Positions 20,931 through 28,552 are shown, counted from the first letter of the stretch. The stretch is DNA of 28,591 nt from a virus (IMGVR_UViG_3300010371_000095:1-28591), one strand, 5' to 3'. Numbers and translations are program-made. The notes: generated by a model not told the origin, from the sequence alone.

Positions 20931-23354
20931 ATGGCTAGGGGAGACGACGTTTACCAGGGCTTGATCGCGAGGGGCGTTGGCCCCGTTGCGGCTGCCGCTC
21001 TGGCTGGCAATGCGCAGCAGGAAAGCTCGTTCAACCCGACTGCATGGAATGCGCAATCGGGAGCTGGCGGCTTGTTTCAATGGCGCGGCCCCCGCCTCGA
21101 CGGCCTGATGCAATACGCCAAGGCAACCAACCGTAGCCCCGGCGATCCCGAAGCTCAGCTCGACTATGTGGTTTCGGAACTGAACGGCCCGGAGTCGAAA
21201 GCCTACAAAGCCATCGAGGCGGCGACCGATATCCCATCCGCCAATGCGGCAGTGAAGCAATACCTCCGCTACGGCCCGAACGAGGGCGGCAAGCGTCTCC
21301 AATACTCCCTAGCCTTTGCCGGGAAGCCGATGCCGACGAACACTGATGCGACATCGCAGGATTTGGACGCCATCTTCGGCGGTGGCGGTGCGCCTTCCGC
21401 TGGCGCATCTCCGGATGTGACCTCCGGCCTCGACGCCATCTTCGGCGAAGAGAAGAACCCGTTCGGCACGACATCTAAGCCGGGCACCCCTCAGTACGTG
21501 AAGGATGCTGCCGCCTATCTCAAGGCTGGCGGAGCTAAGCCTATCGCCGATCCGACTGAACATCCGGGGATCACGCCTCCCGCCGATGTTGTCCCCGACT
21601 GGATGCGGGCGTTCTCGGCACATGCCGTCGAGGGCGTCCCGATCGTGGGTGCCTATGCGCGCAATGCCCGCAGCGCACTCATAGGTCCGGGCGCAGAAGC
21701 GCAGATGGAGGCCGTTGAACAGAAAGCGTCCCAGAGCGCGCCGGCCGCCGCCGTTACCGGTGATGTATTCGGGGCGGTGGCGCCGCTCGCGGCAACTGGG
21801 GGTTTCGTGCCCGGCGCCGCACGCGTGCTGGGAATGGAGGGAAGCATCCCCGTTCGCATGGGATTCGGCGCGCTTAGTGGAGGAGCGCTGACCGGGGCCG
21901 ACACATTGGCGCGGACTGGAGACGTTGAGCAGGCTCGCAACAACGCGCTGGTGGGAGGGGGTATCGGGGGCGGCCTCCCTCTCGTCGGCGCGGGCCTTGG
22001 AATGGCCAAGAACGCTTTCTTTGGCCCGAGCGGCGAGCGGATGGTTGCGAATGCCCTCAATGCGGATCAGAAGGGGGCGTCCAGCAACGTCGCCAATCTT
22101 CTGACGCAGCGTGGCCCAGGTGGGACCGTGGCTGATCTTGGCCCGAACACGCAAAGCCTTGCGGCCGGCCTCGCATCCCTGCCGGGCGAAGCTCAGGGCA
22201 TCGTCGTCAACAACCTCAAAGCCCGCGCGGCACAGACCGGCAACCGGCTAACGCAGGATATCGCGGGAACGATCGGGCAGGGACAGCCCATCGGCCAGCT
22301 CACGGACAGCATTATCGCGGCGCAAAAAGCCGCTGCCGATCCGCTCTATGCTGCTGTGCGCGGACAGCCGGTGCAAGCCACTCCCGGACTTACCGCCATC
22401 GCCAACACGCCGATGGGCAAGTCTGCCTTGCAGCAGGCCGTGACGATGATGCGCAACGATGGGCTGCAGCCCTCGTCAACCGCGGCACTTTACGACTACG
22501 CCAAGCAATCGTTGGACGATGTTGCCAACAGCGCTTTGCGCGTCGGGGAGAACAACAAGGCTCGACAGGCGACGGCGCTCGCTAACCAGATTCGGAGCGA
22601 AATCGACAAGCAGGTGCCGCAGTACGCTCAGGCAAGGGACGCATTCGCCGGCCCAGCCAAGGTGCTCGACGCGGTCAAAATGGGCCAAGACCTGTTCAGC
22701 AGCAAGACCTCTCCGGAAGATCTGCAAAAAACGCTCGCCGGCATGTCCACTTCGGAGCGAGATGGTCTGTTGGCCGGTGCTCAGGCCGCCGTCCAGAAGG
22801 TGTTCGGAACCGCTCGCACCGATGCGGCCGCGATGAAGAGCCTGTTCGACAACGACTATGGCCAGCAGAAGCTTGCGCTGCTCGTCGGCCCCGACGAAGC
22901 GCAGCAGATTGCCAATGCTCTCGAGCGCGAGCGCACGTTCAGCGACACGGCCGGCAAGGTCTATCGCAACTCGGCGACGGCGTCGAACCTGGCGCAGCAA
23001 AAGGTCGTGCAACCTGACCTCGCGGCGATGCCGGGGCGTCTTCCTCCTCAGAGCACGCTTGGCTTGGTCATGTCGGGTCTCGACAAGGCTCGGCAGATGC
23101 TTACGGCCTCTTATCGCAATGCCCAGAACGTCAAGGCTGCTAATCTGCTCACGGCTCCTGCCGGCGCCCCTCAGGCGGCCCGGATTGCGGCTGGCGGTGT
23201 CGCGCCCAATGCGTTGCTGGCCCCAGCCTCGGCTCCGGTTCTTGCAGAGCAGCAGGGCATTCCAATCTCGAATGCATTGACTTGGGCGCAGCCCGCCTTC
23301 AACGCGCTGCAAATTCCGCGGGTGGTCGTCAGCGGGGCAACGCCGTCGCTCTAG
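20931..23354 (+). CDS. Large ejection protein with N-terminal phage lysozyme domain
   Basis: Residues about 5-125 match the Phage_lysozyme2 (tail lysozyme) pattern: Leu-Ile-Ala-Arg-Gly-Val, Ala-Gly-Asn-Ala-Gln-Gln-Glu-Ser-Ser-Phe-Asn-Pro with probable catalytic Glu31, Gly-Gly-Leu-Phe-Gln-Trp, and Gln-Leu-Asp-Tyr-Val. The domain would cut peptidoglycan during entry. The remaining ~680 residues resemble gp16-type ejection proteins: a disordered linker with two Leu-Asp-Ala-Ile-Phe-Gly copies, a Gly/Ala-rich hydrophobic stretch (about 275-365) that may enter the membrane, and a long helical C-terminus. At 807 residues it is larger than P22 gp16 (609). The stop shares a CTAG with the stop of a minus-strand gene. 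Confidence 0.85.
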   Translation: MARGDDVYQGLIARGVGPVAAAALAGNAQQESSFNPTAWNAQSGAGGLFQWRGPRLDGLMQYAKATNRSPGDPEAQLDYVVSELNGPESKAYKAIEAATDIPSANAAVKQYLRYGPNEGGKRLQYSLAFAGKPMPTNTDATSQDLDAIFGGGGAPSAGASPDVTSGLDAIFGEEKNPFGTTSKPGTPQYVKDAAAYLKAGGAKPIADPTEHPGITPPADVVPDWMRAFSAHAVEGVPIVGAYARNARSALIGPGAEAQMEAVEQKASQSAPAAAVTGDVFGAVAPLAATGGFVPGAARVLGMEGSIPVRMGFGALSGGALTGADTLARTGDVEQARNNALVGGGIGGGLPLVGAGLGMAKNAFFGPSGERMVANALNADQKGASSNVANLLTQRGPGGTVADLGPNTQSLAAGLASLPGEAQGIVVNNLKARAAQTGNRLTQDIAGTIGQGQPIGQLTDSIIAAQKAAADPLYAAVRGQPVQATPGLTAIANTPMGKSALQQAVTMMRNDGLQPSSTAALYDYAKQSLDDVANSALRVGENNKARQATALANQIRSEIDKQVPQYAQARDAFAGPAKVLDAVKMGQDLFSSKTSPEDLQKTLAGMSTSERDGLLAGAQAAVQKVFGTARTDAAAMKSLFDNDYGQQKLALLVGPDEAQQIANALERERTFSDTAGKVYRNSATASNLAQQKVVQPDLAAMPGRLPPQSTLGLVMSGLDKARQMLTASYRNAQNVKAANLLTAPAGAPQAARIAAGGVAPNALLAPASAPVLAEQQGIPISNALTWAQPAFNALQIPRVVVSGATPSL

Positions 23355-23590
23355 TGCGCGTCCATAAGCCAGCCGTGGAACATGATCCCTGCCACCCAAG
23401 AGAACATTACGGAGACGCCAAAAAGGCTCTCTCGCGAGCCGGCGTCTCGGGTAGCAAAAATCGCAATCAGTATCGCCACGCATACGAAGAAGGCGTTGCG
23501 GCAGAGCTTCGGATCGTCCGGCAAGTGCCAGCGCCCGGTCTTCGGGTTCTGCTTGCGATAATCGTTCGGGCCAAGGTCGATGTCGGGCAT
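23351..23590 (-). CDS. Small two-helix membrane protein, 79 aa
   Basis: The minus-strand frame encodes a polar N-terminus (residues 1-30, rich in Asp, Pro, Lys and Trp), a hydrophobic stretch at about 33-48, a charged loop (Arg-Asp-Ala-Gly-Ser-Arg-Glu) and a second hydrophobic stretch at 56-75 ending in Met-Asp-Ala-His. This predicts two membrane helices with both ends on one side. No Shine-Dalgarno is visible, but the gene lies 21 bases after the 101-aa gene on the same strand. No family is recognised. Small membrane proteins beside phage regulators can act in superinfection exclusion, but here that is only a possibility. Confidence 0.55.
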   Translation of the reverse strand: MPDIDLGPNDYRKQNPKTGRWHLPDDPKLCRNAFFVCVAILIAIFATRDAGSRESLFGVSVMFSWVAGIMFHGWLMDAH

Positions 23591-23611
23591 TCAGGAGATA
23601 TAGCATGAACC

Positions 23612-23917
23612 TCAGTTCAGCACAGCCGGGCCTGGAAGAACTATGTCTGGCACCTCTATCACCAGAATACCTGGCAGTGGTGCGGGCTCCTCCCAAGCTA
23701 GGAGGGATGCTGGCACTGGTTCATTTATCAGATAGTCGTGCCCAAATGGCCCCGGCTCCTGATGGCGGAACGAACCAAGAGCAATTATCCGTCGCGGTTG
23801 CCGCGTTTTCCCATCTGATGACGCCAGCCAGTGAGGGACGAGCCAAGGCTGACCGTCGTGTTCGATGACATCGCACAGCAGCATTCTGGGCCCATCCATC
23901 AGGAGGCACTTTTTCAT
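23612..23917 (-). CDS. Unknown protein of the minus-strand operon, 101 aa
   Basis: ATG on the minus strand at 23917 overlaps the regulator's TGA (ATGA) and follows CAGGG at good spacing; a longer frame to 23959 is less likely. The 101-residue product begins with Lys-Lys-Cys-Leu-Leu-Met-Asp-Gly and contains Leu-Val-Pro-His-Trp-Leu-Ala, Arg-Arg-Ile-Ile-Ala-Leu, a Pro-Gly-Pro-Phe-Gly-His turn and a hydrophobic Pro-Gly-Ile-Leu-Val-Ile-Glu-Val-Pro-Asp-Ile-Val-Leu end. It looks like a compact beta-rich protein. No toxin motif or catalytic signature was found, so a toxin-antitoxin pairing with the regulator is not supported by sequence alone. Confidence 0.6.
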   Translation of the reverse strand: MKKCLLMDGPRMLLCDVIEHDGQPWLVPHWLASSDGKTRQPRRIIALGSFRHQEPGPFGHDYLINEPVPASLLAWEEPAPLPGILVIEVPDIVLPGPAVLN

Positions 23918-24120
23918 TGGTCGCCCTGAGGCGGCAACAGCCCGTGGCCGACTAACCAATCGCGCACAATCCGGCGCAGCGCTTCCGGACGGCCGGGCTT
24001 GTCCGCTTCTTCGGCGGCATAGGCGTCGATGCCATCGAGGAGGTCGCGGGGAAGGCGGACGGCAACCTGTTCGGTATCGGACCGTGGCCTGCCTCGCCCA
24101 ACTTTTTTTGCATGCAACAA
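23914..24120 (-). CDS. Ribbon-helix-helix (CopG/Arc-type) regulator, 68 aa
   Basis: After a basic N-terminus (Gly-Arg-Gly-Arg-Pro-Arg), residues about 19-62 follow the ribbon-helix-helix pattern: a strand Gln-Val-Ala-Val-Arg-Leu-Pro, helix one (Asp-Leu-Leu-Asp-Gly-Ile-Asp-Ala-Tyr-Ala), a Gly-Arg-Pro-Glu turn, and helix two (Ala-Leu-Arg-Arg-Ile-Val-Arg-Asp-Trp-Leu). Such proteins bind DNA as dimers through the strand. I propose TTG 24120 as start, with TTAGG upstream; TTG 24117 and 24183 are alternatives. Two 19-bp direct repeats cover its start and promoter region, fitting autoregulation. It heads the three-gene minus-strand operon. Confidence 0.75.
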   Translation of the reverse strand: MLHAKKVGRGRPRSDTEQVAVRLPRDLLDGIDAYAAEEADKPGRPEALRRIVRDWLVGHGLLPPQGDQ

Positions 24121-24157
24121 TTGGCAGCGCCTAATTTGTGCATGTAAGAAATAGCAG
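24109..24157. repeat. Two 19-bp direct repeats, operator candidate
   Basis: The sequence at 24109-24127 and that at 24139-24157 both start TGCATG and end in GCAG. They agree at 15 of 19 positions with a 30-bp period, close to three DNA turns. The first covers the proposed start of the RHH gene, the second its proposed -10 box. Spaced short direct repeats at the promoter are typical operators of ribbon-helix-helix repressors. Confidence 0.55.
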
Positions 24158-24176
24158 ACCGGTTGAGCGGTAGCAA
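24148..24176 (-). promoter_or_regulatory. Weak promoter candidate for the minus-strand operon
   Basis: On the minus strand, TTGCTA (24176-24171) and TATTTC (24153-24148) are separated by 17 bases, a partial match to sigma-70 boxes (four and three of six). A start near 24141 would give a leader of about 20 bases before TTG 24120. The -10 lies inside the second direct repeat. Confidence 0.35.
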
Positions 24177-24220
24177 CGCCCAACCGGCCCTAACCGCAAC
24201 CGAAGTTGGAGCCTTCGATC

Positions 24221-24667
24221 ATGGCTGATCGTCTTCATATCACGCGCCGTTTGGCGCTCCTAGGCGCTGCGGCAAGCTCTGTCGCGCTCGCCGTCCCGGC
24301 CGTCAAGGCTGCGCACCTCAATGAGGATATCGCCGCCAAGGTTGATCGGCTCTCCGCCGAGCTGTCAGCGGCCTTGTCCGAATGGTGCAAGGGCCAGTTC
24401 ACTGCCGTAGTGAAGCCGGGGGGTGACGTGCAGTTCGTGAGCGGCGATCAGTTGACCAAAGGGCTCGCCATGGGCCGGTTCTTGGCCTCTGGCTCGAACC
24501 GGAGCGTTGCCGAGTACCATCTGTTCGAGGCTGCAAAGTTGTGCAGCACCGAGTTCGGCGGTCGCTGGGACGTAAATCCGCTCAAGGTTCCCGGCGCCGC
24601 GACGCCGTTCTGCGTTGGCCTTTTCCAACGTCCGGGTTCCGGCGCGACCATCCAGTATTTCGACTGA
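24221..24667 (+). CDS. Predicted exported protein with Tat-like signal, 148 aa
   Basis: ATG 24221 follows a GGAG about ten bases upstream. The N-terminus has the build of a Tat signal: Ile-Thr-Arg-Arg-Leu-Ala-Leu-Leu-Gly with twin Arg at 9-10, a mild hydrophobic core at 11-28, and an Ala-x-Ala-like site near 28-31. The mature part (~118 residues) has three Cys (56, 108, 131), a helical start, a Val-Val-Lys-Pro-Gly-Gly-Asp-Val-Gln-Phe-Val strand pair and an aromatic end. No known family is recognised. Phage structural proteins do not normally carry signal peptides, so this is likely an accessory gene acting in the periplasm. Sec export is an alternative. Confidence 0.65.
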   Translation: MADRLHITRRLALLGAAASSVALAVPAVKAAHLNEDIAAKVDRLSAELSAALSEWCKGQFTAVVKPGGDVQFVSGDQLTKGLAMGRFLASGSNRSVAEYHLFEAAKLCSTEFGGRWDVNPLKVPGAATPFCVGLFQRPGSGATIQYFD

Positions 24668-24678
24668 TCCAAGAAATT

Positions 24679-24692
24679 CCCGCGAGAGCGGG
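24679..24692 (+). other. Short hairpin with GAGA loop after the exported-protein gene
   Basis: CCCGC (24679-24683) and GCGGG (24688-24692) pair around a GAGA tetraloop eleven bases after the stop at 24667. No T-tract follows, so it would be at most a weak terminator or a 3'-end stabiliser. Confidence 0.35.
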
Positions 24693-24729
24693 TCGCGTCC
24701 TCTGGCAGGGACGAAGCGCGAAACGAGAC

Positions 24730-24798
24730 CTCCAAGGCGCTCGGTTTCGCTTTGCGAACCCATGCGCTTCGGGCCTGCCAGGGCCGAGCGCTTTGGAG
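24730..24798 (+). promoter_or_regulatory. 15-bp inverted repeat covering the rha ribosome binding site
   Basis: CTCCAAGGCGCTCGG (24730-24744) pairs with CCGAGCGCTTTGGAG (24784-24798) over 15 positions, with one G-U. The right arm contains the GGAG Shine-Dalgarno (24795-24798) used by ATG 24807. The 39-base loop contains its own TTCGC/GCGAA stem (24746-24758). In mRNA this structure would hide the ribosome site of the antirepressor gene. Confidence 0.65.
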
Positions 24799-24806
24799 AC
24801 AATCCC

Positions 24807-25577
24807 ATGACCGACGAAATCGACCCGCACCGCCAGCCCATCGTGATCGCGAAGGATGGCGAGGCGTTCACCAATAGCCGTGACGTTGCTGCGTTCTTCG
24901 ACAAGGAGCACCGAAACGTCCTTGCGGCGATTGACGCGCTCATCGCTTCGGAGCCGAAGCTAGGGGGTGCTGAATTTTCAGCAGGGGTCTACACCCTGCC
25001 TGCCACGGGAGCCCAAGAGCATCGTCACTACGATATGACCCGTGACGGATTCTCGCTCCTCGCCATGGGATTCACCGGCACCAAAGCCCTAAAGTGGAAG
25101 CTTCGGTACATCGAAGCCTTCAACATCATGGAAGCCGAGCTTCGCGAGCGCGCCAAGACGGGCCCCATGATCGACGTGAACGATCCGGCGCAACTGCGCG
25201 GGCTGTTGCTCAGCTACGCCGACAAGGCGCAGGCACTCAAGCAGCAGGTGGACGATCTTCTGCCGTCCAAGGAGGCGCTGGAACGCATTGCGGAGGCCGA
25301 TGGCAGCCTGTGCATCACCGATGCCGCCAAGGCGCTCCAAATGCGGCCCGGCGACCTTTTTGCCTTTCTGCGGCGCGAGCACTGGATTTACCGCCGCGTC
25401 GGCGCCGCTCATGACGTTGGCTTCCAGCCCAAGGTCAATGAAGGTCTGCTGGAGCACAAGGTAACGACGGTCACTCGGCCAGATGGCTCGGAAAAGATAA
25501 CCGAGCAGGTACGCGTAACCCCAAAGGGCCTCGCGAAGCTGGCGACCGCCTTCAACGGCGACAAGAAAGCCGCCTAA
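24807..25577 (+). CDS. rha: Rha-type phage regulatory protein / antirepressor
   Basis: The 256-residue protein has two recognisable domains. Residues about 10-112 match pRha: Phe-Thr-Asn-Ser-Arg-Asp-Val-Ala-Ala-Phe-Phe, Lys-Glu-His-Arg-Asn-Val-Leu, a Tyr-Asp-Met-Thr-Arg-Asp-Gly-Phe-Ser-Leu-Leu-Ala-Met-Gly-Phe-Thr-Gly block, and Ala-Leu-Lys-Trp-Lys-Leu-Arg-Tyr-Ile-Glu-Ala-Phe-Asn. Residues about 155-250 match the C-terminal antirepressor (ANT/KilAC) domain with Ile-Thr-Asp-Ala-Ala-Lys-Ala-Leu-Gln-Met-Arg-Pro-Gly-Asp-Leu-Phe and Val-Thr-Pro-Lys-Gly-Leu-Ala-Lys-Leu. Rha proteins interfere with phage growth or host regulation in some lambdoid systems. ATG 24807 is chosen because of the GGAG upstream. 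Its place inside the tail gene block is unusual. Confidence 0.85.
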   Translation: MTDEIDPHRQPIVIAKDGEAFTNSRDVAAFFDKEHRNVLAAIDALIASEPKLGGAEFSAGVYTLPATGAQEHRHYDMTRDGFSLLAMGFTGTKALKWKLRYIEAFNIMEAELRERAKTGPMIDVNDPAQLRGLLLSYADKAQALKQQVDDLLPSKEALERIAEADGSLCITDAAKALQMRPGDLFAFLRREHWIYRRVGAAHDVGFQPKVNEGLLEHKVTTVTRPDGSEKITEQVRVTPKGLAKLATAFNGDKKAA

Positions 25578-25607
25578 GTCACTTTCGAATGTTCGATTTT
25601 TACCCAA

Positions 25608-25634
25608 GGCTCGCTTCGGCGGGCCTTTTTCTTT
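25608..25634 (+). terminator. Rho-independent terminator with cUUCGg loop after rha
   Basis: GGCTCGC (25608-25614) pairs with GCGGGCC (25619-25625), with one G-U, around TTCG, giving the very stable C(UUCG)G loop, followed by TTTTTCTTT. It lies 30 bases after the rha stop and is followed immediately by GAGGG, the Shine-Dalgarno of the fibre gene. Confidence 0.85.
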
Positions 25635-25643
25635 GAGGGCCGC

Positions 25644-27095
25644 ATGGCAACTCTTCTCCCCAACGGCAAACAGCAATTCCTCGACGCGAACGGATCGCCG
25701 CTCGCCTCCGGTTCGGTGTTCTTTTACGTGCCGGGAACTGAGGTCACAAAGAACACATTTCAGGATGCCGCCGGCACGATCCTCAACACGAATCCCATCG
25801 TTCTCGATGCATCCGGTGAGGCCGTCATCTACGGCTCTGGCACCTATCGGCAGGTAGTTTTCGATAGTGCTGGAAATTTGGTTTGGGACAAGCCGACGGC
25901 GGACACGGCCGTTGGCGGGCTCGCGTGGGGCGGCACGTCCACCGGTACACCGAATGCGCAGGTGATCGGCGCCTCGTCCTTTACCCAGCAAGACGGTCAG
26001 CAGATTTCCTTCATCGCTGGCGAAGGCCTGACAAACACCGGGCCGCTGACGGTTGCGCCCGGTGGCGGCGCAGGCATTCCGGTTCTGCAGGACTTGCAGA
26101 CCGGCCCAACACCTCTAACCGGCGGCGAAGTCGTCGCGGCCAACGCCGTGACGCTGATCTATGATCAGACGCGGGGTGCCTTCCATCTGCTCTCGGAGCC
26201 GGCGCCGATTCCGCCGACGACCTTCCAAGACGGCTCATTCCGCATTGAGAACACCAGCGACGTAAGCAAGCAGATCGCCTTCGATGCGTCCGGTATCGCG
26301 ACGGGTACAACTCAGACGCTCAAAGCGCCCAATGTGTCGATCACGGTTGGCGATGCCGCCATGTTTCAGGGGGCGTTGTTCGGCTGCACCCTGTCCAACG
26401 ATGCGGTCTCGCCTGGGAACGTCATCGACATTGCCGCCGGGTCAGCGCGCAACTCGACCAACGTTGACAACCTGATCCTCGCGTCAGCGCTCACCAAAAA
26501 CACGTCTCTGTCATGGGCGGTTGGAACTGGTGGCGGCTCTCTCGACACGGGGACGGTGGGCAACAGCACTTACCACGTGTTCCTGATCATGAGGACCGAT
26601 ACCCGCGTGGTGGACGTGCTTACATCTCTCAGCGCCTCGTCGCCGGCGCTCCCGTCGAACTACAGTCTGTTCCGGCGGATTGGGTCGATCATTAGGTCTG
26701 GGGGGAATGTTCAGCTATTCGTACAGGACGGGGACACTTTCATGTGGAACAACGCAAACCCGTCGGCTGACTATTCTGGCGGTAGCCGGTCCAAGTCGGC
26801 GCTGACCGTCAATGTTCCAACCGGAATTCGTGTGCGCGGCCTCTTTGAGACGAGCACTCGCGACACGAATAATGACCTCACAGCTAGCCTCTTCGATGGC
26901 GTGAACACCAACATCAGCGTGACCGCCAAAACGGTGAACACGAACAGCTCGAATATCAGCATGGGCAATATCGTGGAACTGTATCAGTTCACCAATACAA
27001 GCGCTCAAATACAGCTACAAGTCAGCGGCGGCTCCAATGCGAGCACGTCGGTAACTACCCTCGGATGGATCGACGGCCGGGGTCGATCGTCGTGA
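25644..27095 (+). CDS. Tail fibre / tailspike-like protein
   Basis: The 483-residue protein starts at ATG 25644, four bases after GAGGG. The N-terminus (Leu-Pro-Asn-Gly-Lys-Gln-Gln-Phe-Leu-Asp, then Gly-Ser-Val-Phe-Phe-Tyr-Val-Pro-Gly-Thr and Val-Leu-Asp-Ala-Ser-Gly-Glu-Ala) resembles the head-binding part of P22-type tailspikes and related fibres, which attaches the protein to the tail. The middle has the fibre motif Phe-Arg-Ile-x-Asn-Thr-Ser-Asp-Val-Ser-Lys, and the C-terminal 250 residues are beta-rich, Ser/Thr/Asn-rich and likely receptor-binding. No enzymatic tailspike motif was seen. The final 81 bases overlap a minus-strand gene. Confidence 0.8.
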   Translation: MATLLPNGKQQFLDANGSPLASGSVFFYVPGTEVTKNTFQDAAGTILNTNPIVLDASGEAVIYGSGTYRQVVFDSAGNLVWDKPTADTAVGGLAWGGTSTGTPNAQVIGASSFTQQDGQQISFIAGEGLTNTGPLTVAPGGGAGIPVLQDLQTGPTPLTGGEVVAANAVTLIYDQTRGAFHLLSEPAPIPPTTFQDGSFRIENTSDVSKQIAFDASGIATGTTQTLKAPNVSITVGDAAMFQGALFGCTLSNDAVSPGNVIDIAAGSARNSTNVDNLILASALTKNTSLSWAVGTGGGSLDTGTVGNSTYHVFLIMRTDTRVVDVLTSLSASSPALPSNYSLFRRIGSIIRSGGNVQLFVQDGDTFMWNNANPSADYSGGSRSKSALTVNVPTGIRVRGLFETSTRDTNNDLTASLFDGVNTNISVTAKTVNTNSSNISMGNIVELYQFTNTSAQIQLQVSGGSNASTSVTTLGWIDGRGRSS

Positions 27096-27584
27096 TTTGT
27101 AAGCCGGGTAGACTGAATTCGACCGGGACAGGTCATATGCGGAGTCGTTTACGATAGTGGAGCCGGCGGGCACGTTCACGTCCACAAGGGCTACGTTCGC
27201 CCCGATTTTGGCGCCATCGCCGATGGTGACGCGACCGATGATGCAGGCTCCGGCGCCGATCACCACACCTGAGCCTATTTTCGGAGCCTCGTTCTCGGCG
27301 TTGTTGCCGATGGTGACGTGCTGATAGACGACACACCGAGGGCCGATGGCAGCATTCCAAGCAATGTGGATGCCGTTGAAGTCATGCGGAAACCCGACCG
27401 TTGGATCAATGCCAGGGTTCGGCGGGATCGATGCGCAATAGCGCTTCTGGATTTTCGTCCCGAGCCGTCCTGAGCGAAATTCGAATGTCAGGCGATCCCA
27501 CCACGAACGCTCCGAAGCGGGCGTTCCTCTGATCTTACTGAGATGATCTAGCGCCTTCCTCAGGCGCCGAAATGTTCGGGACAT
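27015..27584 (-). CDS. Hexapeptide-repeat acetyltransferase (serine acetyltransferase-like)
   Basis: The ATG at 27584 (minus strand, TTGGAG about ten bases upstream) gives 189 residues. The N-terminal 70 are basic and helical. Residues about 70-145 follow a left-handed beta-helix plan: Phe-Pro-His-Asp-Phe-Asn-Gly-Ile-His-Ile, Ala-Ala-Ile-Gly-Pro-Arg-Cys-Val-Val-Tyr-Gln-His-Val-Thr-Ile-Gly, and Val-Val-Ile-Gly-Ala-Gly-Ala-Cys-Ile-Ile-Gly with further rungs. His in Tyr-Gln-His is a plausible catalytic residue. Such enzymes transfer acetyl from acetyl-CoA to serine or sugars. Beside fibre genes, an envelope-sugar acetylation role is plausible but unproven. The last ~27 residues are antisense to the fibre gene and look like an extension beyond the normal end. 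Confidence 0.75.
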   Translation of the reverse strand: MSRTFRRLRKALDHLSKIRGTPASERSWWDRLTFEFRSGRLGTKIQKRYCASIPPNPGIDPTVGFPHDFNGIHIAWNAAIGPRCVVYQHVTIGNNAENEAPKIGSGVVIGAGACIIGRVTIGDGAKIGANVALVDVNVPAGSTIVNDSAYDLSRSNSVYPAYKSRRSTPAVDPSEGSYRRARIGAAADL

Positions 27585-27597
27585 CGTTCGACGCTCC

Positions 27598-27624
27598 AAG
27601 GCCCCCTCGCGGGCCTTTTTCTTT
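27598..27624 (+). terminator. Rho-independent terminator before the second fibre gene
   Basis: AAGGCCC (27598-27604) pairs with GGGCCTT (27611-27617) around a six-base loop, and the run continues as TTTTTCTTTCT. It would stop plus-strand transcripts from the first fibre gene after crossing the acetyltransferase. The T-tract is followed by GAGG and ATG 27635. On the minus strand the same DNA forms part of the acetyltransferase leader. Confidence 0.75.
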
Positions 27625-27634
27625 CTGAGGCCCC

Positions 27635-28552
27635 ATGACCCTAGTTTACGCAGACCGCGTCCAGGAGACAACGGCCACCACCGGCACAGGCACGTATACG
27701 CTTGCCGGGGCGGTGACGGGTTTCCAGTCCTTCGCGGCGGTGGGAAACGGCAACACCTGCTATTATGCGGCGACTGATGGTACGGCATGGGAAGTCGGCC
27801 TCGGCACATACACTGCGAGCGGCACGACGCTTGCGCGTACGTCGATCCTTGCGAGCTCGAATGCGAATGCGGCGGTGAGTTGGTCAGCCGGCGCCAAGAA
27901 CATCTGGCTCGACTTCCCTGCGCTGGTTGCATCGTACCTTGCGGGAGGCGTGACGGGAACTGGCGCGGTCGTGCTGGCCACCAACCCGACGCTGGTCACG
28001 CCCGCCCTCGGCACACCGTCCAGCGGCACTCTGACGAATGCGACTGGCCTCCCGATCTCGACTGGCGTTTCCGGGCTCGGCACTGGCGTGGCGACGGCGC
28101 TCGCGGTCAATACTGGCTCATCTGGCGCGGTGGTAACGCAGGGCGGCGCTATCATCTCAGCCACTACGGCGACGACCCAGGGTGCGGGCGACAATTCGAC
28201 CAAGATCGCCACGACGGCTTATGCCGATCGCGTGGGGAATGTTCTCCCGATCAATGCGCAAACCGGCACGACTTATACTTTTGCGCTGACGGATGCGGGC
28301 TCACTGGTCACGGGTTCGAACGTATCGGCGATTACCTGGACCATCCCGCTCAACTCATCGGTCGCATTTGCTGTCGGTAGCGTCATCAACCTTGGTCAGG
28401 TGGGTGCGGGACAGATCACGCTCTCCCCCACTGGGGGCGTGACGATGATCTCGGCGAGCTCCAAGACAAAGATCGCTGGTCAATACTCGACCGCATCGCT
28501 CGTCAAGACGGCTACGGATACGTGGTTGCTCTTCGGGGATATCTCGACTTGA
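27635..28552 (+). CDS. Second tail fibre-like structural protein, 305 aa
   Basis: ATG 27635 follows GAGG at four bases. The first 100 residues carry a motif common at the start of phage fibre proteins (Tyr-Ala-Asp-Arg-Val-x-Glu-Thr-Thr, then Thr-Tyr-Thr-Leu-Ala-Gly-Ala and Thr-Trp-Glu-Val-Gly-x-Gly-Thr-Tyr). The middle has [21 protein letters not shown], a well-known fibre repeat, and [11 protein letters not shown], a collar motif. The C-terminal 100 residues form a beta domain ending in Thr-Trp-Leu-Leu-Phe-Gly-Asp. It likely lies at the tail or capsid surface. Confidence 0.8.

Follow-up and report, generated by a model that had tools for sequence, protein, structure and literature searches.

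The viral fragment IMGVR_UViG_3300010371_000095:1-28591 (28.6 kb, 28,591 nucleotides; "the window" below, that is, the whole stretch of DNA that was analysed) codes for P22-like portal and coat proteins and carries, between a lysozyme/ejection-type gene and a fiber-type gene, an island that ends in an antirepressor gene (ant). This island is probably a second immunity region of the type of P22 immI, with a C4-like antisense RNA in the place of sar. We favor this reading because gene order and place match P22 immI; because the same slot holds RHH/Arc genes and an antirepressor in phiAX1 and in other relatives with a P22-type portal; because the RNA is followed by antirepressor genes of several families, and P1 shares the logic c4 - a2 - b2 - icd - ant; and because the interleaved repeats before ant cover its ribosome-binding site, covary, co-change in independent copies, and show an excess of G-U pairs.

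A structured RNA in the antirepressor leader

The 139-nt gap between ant and the preceding gene, which codes for a protein with a twin-arginine (Tat) signal, holds a structured RNA (24694-24803) with four segments in the order a'-b'-a-b. The initial annotation of this block missed the RNA. A repeat search found the interleaved inverted repeats 24702-24719 with 24764-24781 and 24730-24744 with 24784-24798, and none of 3000 dinucleotide shuffles gave interleaved pairing as good as that of the real gap. The predicted parts are as follows.

24694-24770 (+): C4-like antisense domain (alignment and covariation; covariance-model score of 102.9 bits for 24694-24803)
24696-24713 (+): hairpin P2, with a' (24701-24708) in its loop (alignment and covariation)
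24714-24719/24764-24769 (+): stem P1' (alignment and covariation)
24730-24744 (+): segment b', which pairs with b
24743-24760 (+): hairpin H (alignment and covariation)
24774-24798 (+): target half, in which a (24774-24781) is the pairing partner of a' and b (24784-24798) that of b'; b includes GGAG, the ribosome-binding site of ant

With the window, the RNA has 33 members; nearly all of the 32 further copies are in Hyphomicrobiales-type phages or prophages, and many of them are located in bacterial chromosome contigs. A first set of 17, including the window, came from two patterns that gave the loci L070 and L076 and from a two-part a'/a pattern that gave most of the others from viral contigs and genomes. 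True copies were told from chance by the independent b'/b helix, mostly of 10-19 pairs; most matches of the a'...a pattern in genomes were chance and had no such helix. Across the alignment of these 17, pairing reaches 97.2% in b'/b, where 5 pairs have changed on both sides, and 94.3% in P2, P1', and hairpin H together, where 7 pairs have done so. Neither covariation score, that of b'/b or that of P2, P1', and H, was reached in any of 500 shuffles, and sliding abolishes the pairing. The shuffle control leaves relatedness in place, and therefore independently found copies weigh more. The covariance model R1, built without the a'/a and b'/b pairs, gave nine new loci in 392 Bradyrhizobium-family genomes (one of them already seen in an earlier scan), and R2 gave seven more copies in class and order samples. 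In these R1 and R2 copies, neither the P2 loop nor the a site has the sequence seen in the window, and the two have changed together (a' loop/a: GGCCAAG/CTTGGCC, CTGCCA/TGGCAG, CCGCCA/TGGCGG, CCGTCA/TGACGG, CGCAAA/TTTGCG, CGACCAAG/CTTGGTCG, and GCGGCCAC/GTGGCCGC), and compensatory pairing is also kept in seven copies that entered no model. On the plus strand, G-U cells number 33 versus 11 A-C cells, an excess that points to the plus-strand RNA as the paired molecule.

The copies were found in 10 of 392 genomes of the family sample, 8/397 of the order, 2/385 of the class, and 2/398 of the phylum, an indicative distribution, as some genomes are repeated between samples in these ~1,600 genome scans; a DNA search of plasmids gave no match. 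The closest relative of the window, L048 (IMG/VR contig 3300005535_000004; 75% identity in the portal and 63% in the gp16-like protein), keeps the element with paired changes, yet there it precedes a different gene.

The C4 RNA of phages P1 and P7 carries a'-b' and then a-b on one transcript, with b over the ribosome-binding site before the antirepressor operon (PMC5320573, PMC12197685), and acts in trans (PMC12197685). In P1, the sim genes are divergent from c4, which is followed by the a2/b2 sites and then by icd and ant. The RNA described here shares with C4 the a'-b'-a-b order, the placement of a' and b' in loops or unpaired regions, the complementarity to the downstream leader, and the position of b over the ribosome-binding site. 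It differs in that C4 has a long P1 closing hairpins P2 and P3, whereas our members have a separate P2 and a P1' that encloses b' and H, and in that the control gene beside the RNA is of RHH type, while P1 uses operator control by C1. Its logic appears to be that of the C4 antisense RNA in a different fold, and by the model test given below it is not a member of RF01695. No Rfam family matches the RNA of the window; low-threshold matches (Pyrobac-1, R1162, and miRNAs) were far under the cut-offs and were set aside as chance. A C4 fold of the single sequence with P1 formed by GGGT..ACCC was also discarded, as it suits the window and not the other members.

Two copies stand in other surroundings. 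L227 (G025:C109:102165-102283, minus strand) is a second, divergent copy about 25 kb from the first on the same Bradyrhizobium contig and precedes what appear by eye to be replication-type genes. In a Xanthobacteraceae genome, L131 (4572-5243, minus strand) has the RNA before a gene for an S24/LexA-like peptidase and no long b pairing; this copy is possibly decayed or repurposed.

The island and its likeness to P22 immI

The RNA lies in the following gene neighborhood (aa, amino acids; ORF, open reading frame).

20931-23354 (+): left flank, 807-aa phage lysozyme/ejection gene in a gp16-like position (Pfam Phage_lysozyme2, E 5e-23; phrog_5880, E 2e-72)
23351-23590 (-): 79-aa protein with two predicted membrane helices, in the position of P22 sieA (54% identical homologue in L048; no family match)
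23605-23868 (+): 87-aa ORF that replaces a previously claimed, overlapping 101-aa ORF (conserved in L048)
23914-24120 (-; ORF open to 24183): putative RHH (CopG-type) regulator, 68 aa from the likely start TTG at 24120, in the position of Mnt (Pfam RHH_1, E 7e-4)
24104-24151 (no strand): candidate operator formed by a pair of TTGCATGCAA-like palindromes that lie 30 bp apart, in the region of the divergent promoters (direct and inverted repeats)
24221-24667 (+): 148-aa protein with a twin-arginine signal (ITRRLALLG, from the sequence), first gene of the plus operon
24807-25577 (+): antirepressor Ant, 256 aa, Rha and KilAC domains (PF09669, E 1.6e-25; PF03374, E 1.2e-24; phrog_63, E 1.7e-45)
25606-25627 (+): terminator-like hairpin closing the operon, a 9-pair stem followed by a T-rich tail
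25644-27095 (+): right flank, fiber-type gene in the position of P22 gene 9 (phrog_26190, E 1e-10)

In P22 immI, sieA, orf59a, and mnt lie on the minus strand and are followed by arc, the sar RNA, ant, a terminator, and the tailspike gene 9. There, arc and ant are repressed by Mnt, the ant mRNA is bound by sar, and the target of Ant is the C2 repressor (PMC11016777). The window shares the slot, with the last ejection gene on one side and the tailspike or fiber gene on the other; minus-strand genes for a membrane protein and an RHH regulator, which diverge from a plus-strand operon with an antirepressor and a terminator at its end; and an antisense RNA (predicted in the window) over the start of ant. 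There are also differences: where P22 has a second RHH protein (Arc) in its plus operon, the window has the Tat-signal protein; the P22 antirepressor is of the P22_AR type and that of the window is Rha/KilAC; and sar is transcribed from the strand opposite to ant, whereas the RNA of the window is on ant's own strand. No opposite-strand promoter was found in a sigma-70 scan, which does not cover all promoters. By order and components, the island is an immI-type region that departs from P22 in the Arc feature and apparently in the sar feature.

The initial annotation had read the minus-strand side as an operon of three genes. Its two-helix membrane protein (the 79-aa ORF, with two hydrophobic segments) and its RHH regulator (the RHH-type ORF 23914-24183) hold, and so do the Tat-signal protein and the Rha-type antirepressor that it placed on the plus strand. 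Its 101-aa gene (23612-23917, minus strand) was rejected: it is antisense to the 87-aa ORF, has no homologues, and its frame is not kept in L048 (26%, E 0.6). The overlapping 87-aa frame is kept instead, with 43% identity to L048 (E 2e-8) and a third-position bias (codon-position differences of 19/22/40 over 59 codons), so that the middle gene of the supposed operon lies on the plus strand. As for the strong terminator said to close the block, a hairpin is indeed present, but by itself it does not make strong evidence, since the scan found 7 such sites versus 5.2 in shuffles.

The domains of Ant score well above the curated cut-offs (89.9 bits for Rha and 87.1 for KilAC, versus 29.9 and 25.3), and Ant shares both of them over its full length with Rha/KilAC phage antirepressors. 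A protein of Paracoccus phage Pyei1 is 42% identical; the Pyei1 antirepressor sits in the early region, whereas that of the window is in the tail module, under the structured RNA. Behind other copies of the RNA, we found Rha/KilAC in L070 (77% identical to that of the window), Rha in L199, L231, and L232, Bro-N in L228 and L239, and the P22 Ant domain in L229. The L239 gene (1614-2420) joins a Bro-N front half to a KilAC rear half that shares 57% identity with that of the window Ant, a swap of the front domain.

The slot recurs in other phages. In the Acetobacter phage phiAX1, a lysozyme-like gene is followed by an Arc-type gene (minus strand) and by an Arc-like and a KilA-N gene (both plus strand). 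Among the P22-portal relatives, G015 has an Arc-type gene and then Arc and Rha/KilAC, G012 an RHH gene and then KilA-N, G008 Arc-like and KilA-N genes, and G011 an inverted set of Mnt-like, Arc-like, and KilAC-type genes; in PAE2 and PBR31 the annotation contains no set of RHH/Arc and antirepressor. Because gene sets differ among these phages, the block is a module of changing content in a recurring location, and not an invariant late-gene set. The fiber-type gene is likewise 3' of the module in L048, L076, and L202. Queries with the 807-aa, Tat, and 101-aa proteins found no relatives in viral contigs, nor did the 807-aa protein match in genome contigs.

Twenty of the 33 members carry an RHH gene on the upstream side of the RNA, in every case on the minus strand (6 of the 20 seeded the RHH search profile), and 13 carry a Tat-signal gene directly upstream (one of them, L221, assigned by eye); gene calling near the RNA copies was crude. 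The window, a fragment, has no integrase, but its nearest relative L048 has one and copies of the RNA occur in bacterial contigs, which suggests that the window phage is temperate. The initial annotation was right that the block is not made of virion parts. It appears to be self-controlled and regulatory, and temperate relatives carry it.

A strong 14-pair inverted repeat (24156-24190), likely in the 5' leader of the plus transcript, is found between the candidate operator and the Tat-signal gene; in the closest relative only the neighboring sequence GCCCTAACCGCAACCGA is kept.

The proposed switch and its alternatives

In the switch that we propose, the RHH protein would bind the palindromes of the candidate operator and repress the divergent promoters. 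The plus transcript would run through the Tat-protein gene, the RNA, and ant. Within the RNA, a' would be displayed in the P2 loop and b' in the region closed by P1'; a' would pair with a and b' with b, pairings supported by the sequences, and would mask the ribosome-binding site of ant, so that the antirepressor would remain unmade while the first gene product could be made. As in the C4 of P1 and P7, the antisense half of one transcript may silence the target half of another, which would keep the prophage quiet and block ant of an incoming relative. If silencing failed, the antirepressor would presumably inactivate the phage repressor, which is not encoded in the window, and favor lysis, as known antirepressors do. 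Related phages retain this control cassette and swap its output for other antirepressor types or Vipr-type RNA-guided systems. We infer the function of the RNA and its action in cis or in trans from these sequence features.

Several points weigh against an immI-type region under a C4-like RNA. The RF01695 covariance model found the c4 of P1 as a positive control (68.8 bits), and despite this working control it gave no match to the window at E up to 10, nor at the gathering threshold in 15 other member loci. The RHH_1 match is slightly under its Pfam cut-off, and some members have no RHH or Tat genes in the stretch examined. In 16 of the 33 members, the RNA is followed by a gene of phrog_4652 (the protein family of L048 and L173) and not by an antirepressor gene. 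The individual a' pairings are short and singly non-significant versus shuffled loops; the evidence for a'/a lies in their recurrence at one place and not in single pairings.

Since a and b are only 2 nt apart, both helices could hardly form together with P1' in one molecule, an incompatibility that fits trans action and a two-state cis switch alike. Action in cis only, which we judge rather unlikely, would mean that no trans-acting RNA exists: either a:a' and P1' form a long rod and the ribosome-binding site of ant stays accessible, or b':b forms and closes it, and transcription or translation of the upstream gene sets the state. This rod is the predicted minimum-energy fold of the single sequence, P1' covaries and stacks onto a:a', and both halves are always adjacent on the same transcript. 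A pure rod, however, has no need of the separately covarying hairpin P2 with a' in its loop, and the a'-b'-a-b arrangement copies that of C4, known to act in trans (PMC12197685).

It is unlikely that the island is mainly lysogenic-conversion or exclusion cargo, whose membrane and Tat proteins exclude phages while the regulators merely time expression. The cargo is placed like sieA of P22 and sim of P1 beside immI, Tat-signal genes recur in 13 members, and their mature parts diverge widely, as expected for proteins in conflict; but the cargo genes are the least conserved, whereas the RNA, the RHH gene, and the antirepressor or Vipr gene recur, and the island proteins gave no match to the PADLOC defense models. 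By analogy with sieA and sim, exclusion by the membrane or the Tat protein is possible, a role that for the latter we infer. The envelope-directed products do not appear to be the center of the island; its conserved core consists of RHH regulator, first plus gene, RNA, and antirepressor or Vipr gene. Finally, phage DNA often contains inverted repeats, the fold z-score of the single sequence is only -2, and the element precedes unrelated genes in different phages, but the two-sided compensatory changes over 33 copies, the G-U strand bias, and the constant position over the ribosome-binding site make it very improbable that the leader repeats are a DNA feature (a recombination or packaging site) or chance, with no RNA regulator.

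Vipr-type outputs and neighboring genes

The phrog_4652 genes found behind the RNA are related to the gene of the RNA-guided Vipr protein. The family profile gives a match to SUSP1 Vipr, a protein of solved structure (E 1e-7), and the best Protein Data Bank matches of the predicted structure (mean pLDDT of 77) are of Cas7/Csm3 type, with a TM-score of about 0.45. GGY/NN pentanucleotide guide-like repeats lie downstream in 14 of the 16 phrog_4652 members, with a score of at least 25/30 (shuffles reach at most 23), and no member that lacks a Vipr gene exceeds 21. L048 has the VIPR features tested, a Vipr-like gene and a repeat score of 28/30. The window is not a VIPR locus: it has no Vipr gene, and its best GGY/NN score (19/30) is within the shuffles. 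VIPR is an RNA-guided DNA-binding phage system whose vrRNAs are reported to target rival phages and lysis-lysogeny regulators; the main text of the preprint mentions neither antirepressors nor a C4-like element (PMC13142463).

Tentatively, and as a possibility somewhat short of an even chance, we propose that the new C4-like RNA family is a portable immunity switch of Hyphomicrobiales phages with antirepressors and VIPR as interchangeable outputs. VIPR would then be a programmable antirepressor, with guide RNAs aimed at the regulators of rival prophages and held off by the C4-like RNA until needed. Apart from this possibility, the RNA would bring C4-type antisense control to alphaproteobacterial phages through a family that differs from C4 in structure and that Rfam lacks. 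The island also shows that the P22 immI slot recurs in distant phages. VIPR, newly described and thought to predate CRISPR, gains a concrete candidate control element and a functional neighbor class, the antirepressors, which makes its purpose in temperate phages directly testable.

VIPR-type loci (a Vipr-like gene, usually a second small gene, and GGY/NN repeats) stand directly behind the RNA in L048 (14500-15920, minus strand) and likewise in L076, L173, L183, L200, L207, L209, L218, L220, L221, L233, L234, L240, and L242, all of them alphaproteobacterial phages or prophages. A search for targets of the vrRNA-like guide repeats within the sequences examined gave mostly chance-level matches. 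Under a one-base-skip rule, a repeat of L218 (tract at +826 after its RNA) matches 19 of 20 letters near base 315 of L173, a Bradyrhizobium pachyrhizi prophage stretch; the shuffled control reached 16/20, and with many guides compared this could be chance. L209 (20/22) and L218 (18/20) have one further near match each.

Adjoining the fiber gene in antisense, the window codes for a Hexapeptide-repeat transferase-like protein (27015-27932, minus strand; Hexapep, E 9e-10). P22 has its gtr O-antigen conversion genes at this place, and the gene of the window is possibly involved in surface modification.

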